64,000 nt of DNA. Source: Cyanobium sp. ATX 6A2. GTDB lineage: Bacteria; Cyanobacteriota; Cyanobacteriia; PCC-6307; Cyanobiaceae. Of this stretch, positions 55,314 to 57,214 are shown piece by piece. The notes under the pieces are model-generated. The model saw only the letters and a list, made by a program, of their open reading frames with translations, did not search any database and was not told the origin of the DNA. Positions within the stretch are counted from its first letter, which is position 1. Every line of letters starts with the position of its first letter. Position numbers and translations under genes: made by a program. The DNA is taken from the NCBI RefSeq assembly GCF_024346355.1, contig NZ_JAGQCU010000001.1:124001-188000 (forward strand). The letters run 5' to 3'.

Positions 55314-56393
55314 CTACGCAGCCAGGTAGCCCTCGAGGCGGCAGGACTGGGAGCGGATGCCCTCCAGGGCCTTGCGCTCGAGGTTGCGGGTCTTGTCCCG
55401 GCTCATGCCCAGGGTCTTGGCGATCGAGCTCAAGCTCATCGGTTCGCGCAACCCTTCCCCCTCGGTGGCGATGCCGTAGCGCATCTTCAGCACCCGGCCC
55501 TGCAGGTCCGGCAGCTGTTCCAGCAGCGCCCGCAGGTCGCCCTTCAGGCACTCCCCATCCACCCGCTCCTCCGGCAGCTCCTCATCCCCAGCCAGCAGCT
55601 CCAGCAGCTCCGTGTCCTCCCCGTCGCCCACCTTCGTCTCCAGGCTCACCGGCTGCCGCGCACGGCACAGCAGGTCCTTCACCTCCTCCTCAGGCAGCTC
55701 CACGAACTCCGCCAGTTCCGTCACCGTCGGCGTCCGCCCCAGCGTCTGGCTCAGCTCCCGCTGACCCTTCTTCAGCTTGTTCAGCGTTTCCGTGATGTGG
55801 ATCGGCAGCCGGATCGTGCGGCTCTTCTCCGCAATCGCCCGCGTGATCCCCTGCCGGATCCACCAGTACGCATACGTACTGAACTTGTAGCCGCGGGTGG
55901 GGTCGAACTTCTCCACACCCCGCACCAGCCCGATCGTTCCCTCCTGGATCAGATCCAGCAGTTCCATGTTCCGCTTGGTGTATTTCTTCGCCACGCTCAC
56001 CACCAGACGCAGGTTCGCCGCCACCATCCGCTCCTTCGCCCGACGACCCGCCTGCAGACGCTTCTTCAGCAGCTGCGGGCTCATCCCCGCCGCCGCCGCC
56101 AGCTCACTGGCGCTCGGGGCACTGCCACCGGCACGCATCGTCAGTTCCTGCTCGATCTCCTCCAGCCCCATCAGCTCCTGCACCTGACGGCCCAGGGTGA
56201 TCTCCTGCTCATGGGACAGCAGCGGCACCCGGCCGATGTCGCGCAGGTAGCTGCGCACCAGGTCGCCGCCGCCGAGCTGGTTGGCTTCCCCGAAGGCAAC
56301 CCGGGGGCCGGTGGTGGCAACGCGGGAGGCAGCAGCGGCAGGCGCCATCGCAGGGGCAGCGGCGGGTGCGGCGGCGGCGGGGCGAGGGGCCAT
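55314..56393 (-). CDS. Group-2 sigma-70-type RNA polymerase sigma factor
   Basis: 359 residues. Ala/Pro-rich N-terminus, then region 1.2 [21 protein letters not shown], region 2 [12 protein letters not shown] ... [15 protein letters not shown], region 3 [19 protein letters not shown] and region 4 [24 protein letters not shown]. It lacks the large region 1.1 of the primary SigA. Such sigmas respond to light or stress in cyanobacteria. A 12-bp inverted repeat sits 9 nt upstream of the ATG. Confidence 0.92.
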
Positions 56394-56402
56394 GGCGTTC
56401 GT

Positions 56403-56432
56403 GGTTTACGAAACGTTCTTGTTTCGTAAACC
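56403..56432 (-). promoter_or_regulatory. Perfect 12-bp inverted repeat before the sigma-factor start
   Basis: GGTTTACGAAAC (56403-56414) and GTTTCGTAAACC (56421-56432) are exact inverse copies with a 6-nt spacer. In the sigma-factor transcript this would fold as a hairpin ending 9 nt before the ATG at 56393, covering the ribosome-binding area. As DNA it could be a dimer operator. The AT-rich arms stand out from the GC-rich surroundings. Confidence 0.6.
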
Positions 56433-56488
56433 TATCACCCCTGGCCCGTCCTGGCCCCTGTCGCCCTGGCCCTGGCAAGGATGGGGGG

Positions 56489-57214
56489 ATGCCAGCCGAA
56501 CGGCTCCAGAAGCTGATCGCCGCCGCCGGGCTCTGCTCCCGCCGCAGCGCCGAAACCCTCCTCAGCCAGGGACGCGTGTGCGTCAACGGCCGTACCGCCG
56601 GCCTCGGGGATCGGGCCGATCCGGCCAGCGACGCGATCACGGTGGACGGCCGCCCCCTGCGCCCGGCGGCCCACCCCCTGCTGCTGCTGCTCAACAAGCC
56701 CGCCGGCGTGCTCTGCAGCTGCAGGGACCCCCAGGGCCGCGCCACCGTGCTCGACCTGCTGCCCCCGGAACTGCGCCGTGGTCAGGGGCTGCATCCGGTG
56801 GGCCGCCTCGACGGCGACAGCCGCGGCGCCCTGCTGCTCACCAACCAGGGCGATCTCACCCTGCGCCTCACCCACCCCCGCTTTGGCCACCGCAAGACCT
56901 ACCGGGTGTGGGTGGCGGGGGCGCCTGCGCCCTCCACCCTGGAACGCTGGGCGGCCGGGGTGCCCCTGGAGGAGGGCCCCAGCCAGCCGGTGCTGGTGGG
57001 GCGACGGCGGCAACAGGACGATCGCTGCCAGCTGGAGCTGGTGATGGGCGAGGGCCGCAACCGCCAGATCCGCCGCACCGCAGCTCTGCTCGGCCATCCG
57101 GTGCTGGATCTGCAACGTCTGGCGATCGGGCCGGTTGAGCTGGGGACTCTGGAGGAGGGCCAGTGGCGCCACCTCGATCGCCGAGAATGGCGCGCCCTGG
57201 CCTGCGATCCCTGA
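56489..57214 (+). CDS. RsuA/RluB-family pseudouridine synthase
   Basis: 241 residues from ATG at 56489. S4 domain (ERLQKLIAAAGLCSRRSAE, GRVCVNG), then LLLLLNKPAGVLCS, GRLDGDSRGALLLTNQGDL with the catalytic Asp, and EGRNRQIRRTAALLGHPVLDL. The family makes pseudouridine in 23S or 16S rRNA. A GGGGGG run just upstream may act as ribosome-binding site. Its end overlaps the next gene by 28 bp. Confidence 0.92.
   Translation: MPAERLQKLIAAAGLCSRRSAETLLSQGRVCVNGRTAGLGDRADPASDAITVDGRPLRPAAHPLLLLLNKPAGVLCSCRDPQGRATVLDLLPPELRRGQGLHPVGRLDGDSRGALLLTNQGDLTLRLTHPRFGHRKTYRVWVAGAPAPSTLERWAAGVPLEEGPSQPVLVGRRRQQDDRCQLELVMGEGRNRQIRRTAALLGHPVLDLQRLAIGPVELGTLEEGQWRHLDRREWRALACDP

Follow-up and report, generated by a model that had tools for sequence, protein, structure and literature searches.

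A conserved, probable operator resembling the SufR box at the predicted promoter of one of two near-identical group-2 sigma factor genes in Cyanobium and its relatives

Closest to the locus described here is the SufR system of Synechocystis, in which, as set out in the available sections of PMC13421787 and PMC4755962, the SufR dimer carries [4Fe-4S] and, bound to CAAC-N6-GTTG, represses sufBCDS along with its own gene sufR, and iron limitation and oxidative stress derepress suf. The same sections of PMC13421787 describe SufR as a switch of local reach, acting on sufBCDS, ftrC and itself, and report that RpaA/RpaB control sigF genes in strain PCC 7942.

The window analysed here is a 64-kb stretch of the genome of Cyanobium sp. 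ATX 6A2. An inverted repeat in it, located before a sigma factor gene referred to here as sigX, shares with the SufR box at PCC 6803 sufR/sufBCDS its two-fold symmetry, N6 spacing, AAC/GTT letters and 24-bp frame; as in the PCC 6803 system, sufR is present in the window genome, and the same motif is found at suf in the family. The half-site differs, being GAAAC in place of the (G/A)CAAC of the PCC 6803 box, with the outer base A rather than C at suf and sigX alike. The target differs as well, a sigma gene being absent from the SufR targets listed in the available sections of PMC13421787, and a search of open-access PMC papers (RegPrecise and subscription journals lie outside that scope) found no SufR–sigma link in print. 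Like RpaA/RpaB over sigF in PCC 7942, this would be a stress-sensing regulator set over an alternative sigma gene, forming a two-tier response; unlike that system, the sensor would be an iron–sulfur cluster protein, and the sigma factor duplicates a resident sigma, from which its body hardly differs.

The repeat occupies the following position:

56403..56432, no strand assigned: palindromic operator (proposed SufR box), from repeat detection and conservation

Separated from the sigX ATG by nine nucleotides (56394–56402), the repeat is composed of two 12-nt arms (56403–56414 and 56421–56432), 100% complementary and flanking a 6-nt spacer, and these coordinates bear out the description in the earlier note. 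Within it is the conserved 24-bp core TTACGAAAC-N6-GTTTCGTAA (56406–56429). With arms of 12 nt and a loop of 3–12 nt as the criteria, no second perfect inverted repeat occurs in the window; among 12 first-order Markov shuffles of the window, perfect 12-bp repeats numbered none in 11 and one in the remaining shuffle. The length of the repeat by itself is only mildly unusual, and the repeat stands above chance because it is conserved in relatives, not because of its length.

The gene downstream of the repeat is composed of a body and a region 4.2 part with distinct relationships to a sister copy:

55314..56393, minus strand: sigX, group-2 type sigma factor of 359 aa, ATG at 56393, TIGR02997 above cut-off
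55494..56264, minus strand: sigX body, aa 44–300, regions 1.2 to 3 and the start of 4, 99.2% DNA identity to the sister copy elsewhere in this genome
55317..55451, minus strand: sigX region 4.2 part, aa 315–359, a different conserved type, 63.8% DNA identity to the sister

That the repeat precedes a group-2 sigma gene, as first read from the letters, holds for this minus-strand ORF (56393..55314), which matches TIGR02997 above its cut-off. Against the group-1 RpoD model NF005643 it reaches 316 of 500 bits, and none of the named SigB/C/D models reaches its cut-off; by these model scores sigX classes as a group-2 sigma, cyanobacterial RpoD-like but not a group-1 RpoD. It shares regions 1.2, 2, 3 and 4 and the TIGR02997 match with the cyanobacterial group-2 sigmas of SigB/SigD/SigE type, but differs from these in belonging to a pair that is alike in body and different in region 4.2 and promoters. 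The two sigma genes, at window positions 55494–56264 and at G000 C12:193783-194823, are 99% identical in DNA over about 800 bp, and the sequence around this stretch has diverged.

DNA identity over the body (aa 44–300) is 90.7–100% in 18/18 sigma pairs compared, with 97.7% of third positions identical in the window genome, and is 64–80% after aa 315 in the 12 pairs readable to the end; paired genes differ upstream and in region 4.2. In several lineages the gene tree groups both copies by genome, and owing to this grouping it failed to separate sigX from its sister (14 label changes). This pattern suggests that the near-identical bodies are kept alike by gene conversion. At residue 325, 20 of 22 sigX proteins have A and all 26 sister or single copies have G; at residue 335, sigX has T or A and the sister or single copies have V or I. 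By eye count, the head of region 4.2 is of the IA(K/R) type in 20 of the 22 site-bearing named copies with a readable head and of the IGR type in two (L278 and L313), and among 57 named copies without the site four have an IA- or IS-type head (L276, L286, L292 and L312). The site-bearing copies with sister-type IGR heads, L037/L278 (Cyanobium CH-040) and L313, give the impression that conversion extended across the head as well. With E. coli region 4.2 as the guide, we take the two heads to resemble each other in the residues making the main −35 base contacts, and the residues that differ to lie nearer the activator-contact face. That the two heads differ in function is a proposition to which we give even weight for and against.

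Many of the sigX sites in draft assemblies are no more than a few hundred bases from a contig end (for example, G180 C83, G217 C4 and G113 C30). These breaks are probably due to the near-identical sigma bodies in short-read assembly, and bodies so alike over about 800 bp may cause breaks or chimeras at sigX when genomes are assembled from short reads.

Divergent from sigX, on the other side of the repeat, is a second gene:

56489..57214, plus strand: rlu, divergent rRNA pseudouridine synthase (RluB/RsuA type), TIGR00093 above cut-off

The earlier note had proposed a search for the repeat in relatives, and there it recurs: the pattern GTTTACGAAAC-N6-GTTTCGTAAAC was found, at up to three mismatches, in 71 of 300 family genomes, compared with 7 of the same 300 for a backward-read control pattern (7 being an eye count from the table); the N6 spacing was preset in this search. 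In readable flanks the motif stands directly upstream of the sigma gene, and every genome listed by an order-level motif search belongs to the same family. Loci with sigma beside rlu all score 15–18/18, and those with rlu but without an adjoining sigma gene score 8–12/18, the exceptions being G038 and G159, in which contigs stop near the site. Many of these loci were chosen by the motif; the split in score is the same among those fetched through rlu position or the sigma protein, in whose choice the motif played no part. Of 80 named loci collected through the sigma protein, 23 have the site, including Synechococcus WH7803 (site-bearing copy in CT971583.1 at about 1.42 Mb), WH 5701, SynAce01, CS-1329 and several Cyanobium. 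The half-sites GAAAC and GTTTC do not vary among 31 distinct suf sites; among 78 distinct sigX sites each of their positions is 96–100% conserved, and the spacer has no conserved sequence in either set; because sites were admitted by score (at least 14/18 for sigX and at least 12/18 for suf), this conservation of the core is partly by construction.

Comparison of the genomes shows the same two-fold symmetric motif, the core TTACGAAAC-N6-GTTTCGTAA, to recur at two positions per genome, one ahead of a single member of the sigma pair (sigX) and the other in the region that separates sufR from the suf operon. With up to three mismatches allowed in the 18-base core, a sigma site and a second site were found in 11 of 11 genomes tested. 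The second site adjoins sufR, and its neighbours, recognised by eye, are presumably SufB and the ferredoxin-thioredoxin reductase catalytic chain (ftrC). The suf site of the window genome is weaker (15/18, three mismatches) than its sigma site (18/18). Near this weak site, at L102 2790-2880 in the sufR/suf intergenic region, are extra GGTTGCGAAACC-like pieces that might be additional half-sites. Genome G171 has a third site besides the sigma and second sites, and a third core match in G005 (C10:19715-19738, 3/18 mismatches, with the backward control in this genome at zero) is a possible further SufR target.

The SufR of the window genome matches TIGR02702 with 202.6 bits (cut-off 178.8), and SufR was detected in 114 of 151 family genomes. 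Among SufR loci the candidate cluster cysteines 237 and 250 are kept in 43/43 and 264 and 279 in 41/41; a PDB search with SufR gave a single weak match, a GntR-family chain. Of 30 SufR genes from other families, 17 are preceded within 450 nt by the published box CAAC-N6-GTTG, which there has outer TT/AA ends and the same 24-bp frame as the core described here. Over the same 450 nt (L243–L272), CAAC/GTTG-like halves at N9 spacing were seen in 15 of the 30.

Site, second sigma copy and SufR were compared across 48 near-complete genomes, of which 33 have SufR and 15 do not. Two high-scoring sigma copies are present in 25/33 SufR-positive and 0/15 SufR-negative genomes (a hand count; Fisher p 4e-7, with kinship not removed), all 15 SufR-less genomes being single-copy; counted by genus, two copies occur in 12/16 SufR-positive and 0/4 SufR-negative genera. 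The site precedes one sigma copy in 25/25 two-copy genomes and the single copy in 0/23, and the other copy lacks it in all 18 pairs examined, the window genome included. As judged from these gene and motif matches, the site occurs in just those of the near-complete genomes compared that have a second copy, and each of these genomes that is without SufR is also without the second copy. The fragmented genomes G127 and G096 are exceptions, each having an assembled sigma copy without the site, which could be an assembly error at the repeated body; G022 (62% complete) and G120 (74% complete) have the sigma site and no SufR match. Because eight of the 33 near-complete SufR-positive genomes are without sigX, the SufR–sigX link is dispensable. 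One genus, g5 (G004, G061, G089, G112, G131 and G147), has kept SufR and the suf site and is missing the second sigma copy; sigX, but not SufR, appears to have been lost there.

SufR is very probably the protein that binds the repeat. We infer this from comparison, and the half-site letters differ from those of the published box, so that a dimeric regulator other than SufR could control sigX and suf through the same DNA operator; this is unlikely, given that sufR adjoins the second site, that the N6 spacing and the AAC/GTT letters agree with the SufR box, and that genomes without SufR are also without the sigma site.

Overlapping the SufR-box-like site is the predicted promoter of sigX:

56429..56437, minus strand: extended −10 TGATAGGTT (TGNTANNNT) of the sigma promoter, the same element in the same place in 75/78 distinct sites
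56421..56424 (about 56422), minus strand: predicted transcription start, from its spacing to the −10

A promoter scanner for canonical −35/−10 elements found none, and the extended −10 emerged from the comparison of relatives. In 75 of the 78 distinct sigX sites the −10 abuts the core, TGNTANNNT in the sigma sense ending on core base one (52 sites, as in the window genome, where the last base of the element is the first base of the core) or two (23 sites); shuffling of the upstream 20 nt gives 1.3 such sites on average, the opposite sense gives 0/78, and the element played no part in site selection. Because the extended −10 ends on the first core bases, the sigX transcript is predicted to start inside the palindrome, in its upstream arm, 6–9 nt downstream of the −10, leaving a leader of about 29 nt in the window genome. 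The sigma ATG is usually 6–17 nt past the core, and some loci have no start there or a farther one (for example, G054). The repeat is almost certainly a conserved operator of the sigma promoter.

The intergenic region is common to sigX and rlu, and at sufR/suf SufR controls a divergent pair, so that SufR might act here mainly on rlu, or on both genes equally. This is quite improbable, since neither TGNTANNNT nor TANNNT abuts the site in the rlu sense in any of the 78 sites, and rlu is 36 to 286 nt away, compared with the mostly 6–17 nt between core and sigma ATG. Where rlu lies away from sigma (G051, G054, G084, G106 and G141) the site stays with sigma, and where rlu occurs without sigma no site is seen; rlu is probably a neighbour of the operator and not its target.

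The earlier note had offered two readings of the repeat, an RNA hairpin that hides the ribosome-binding site until temperature or a ligand melts it, and a binding site for a dimeric repressor, and the evidence favours the second, a DNA operator. A stem-loop in the sigma mRNA leader acting as a thermometer, ligand switch or stability element would be in keeping with the strong predicted fold (−17.2 kcal/mol, z −5.3) and the position near the ATG. However, all nine core pairs are kept in only 47 of the 78 distinct sigX sites; at least one is broken in the other 31, usually by C.C or G.G at the fourth base, fixed across entire lineages, and the half-site letters are kept regardless. Compensatory conservation of pairing, sought across the 78 sites, was not found, an Rfam search of the window at gathering thresholds gave no match, and no purine-rich ribosome-binding site lies between repeat and ATG; moreover, the predicted start falls within the stem, and the same motif recurs at suf. 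An RNA regulator was rejected on these grounds and is very improbable. The two-fold symmetric conserved site in SufR-box format, shared with the sufR/suf region, supports the repressor reading. Against its own proposal the earlier note had set a transcript start inside the repeat together with a lack of conservation in relatives; the start is indeed predicted there and the lack of conservation is not found, and this weighs against the hairpin but leaves the operator reading untouched.

A chance palindrome, a terminator or a dispersed repeat can be practically dismissed, as one of the 12 shuffled windows also has a perfect 12-bp repeat but the site is conserved family-wide, a scan of the 3.0-Mb genome that allowed up to three mismatches gives one locus for the full motif, and no intrinsic terminator is called in 56300–56600.

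In the scheme that these comparisons point to, the SufR operator would be laid over the start point of the sigX promoter. A SufR dimer carrying its [4Fe-4S] clusters would sit on about −7 to +17 and block RNA polymerase. Upon loss or reduction of the clusters, in iron shortage, oxidative stress or over-reduction of photosystem I, SufR would let go, and sigX would be produced together with the SUF assembly machinery. As sigX combines its sister's body with a different region 4.2, iron–sulfur status would then change the promoters or activators that the polymerase can use. The full scheme, repression of sigX by [4Fe-4S]-SufR and release on cluster loss, is likely. A wider reading, to which we lend no more belief than disbelief, is that the two sigma bodies are repeatedly re-copied by gene conversion with promoter and head kept apart, SufR timing the second head, so that iron–sulfur cluster status would act directly on what the polymerase reads, and lineages without SufR having lost that head too.

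The pair of sigma factors offers a natural test of the role of region 4.2, being useful in this respect because the rest of both proteins is nearly the same. The comparison suggests that many picocyanobacteria may make one duplicated sigma copy when iron–sulfur clusters run short. If SufR does control a sigma factor, it would be the top of a cascade rather than a local switch, and in picocyanobacteria iron and photosystem I stress would then have a defined path by which to reach global transcription.
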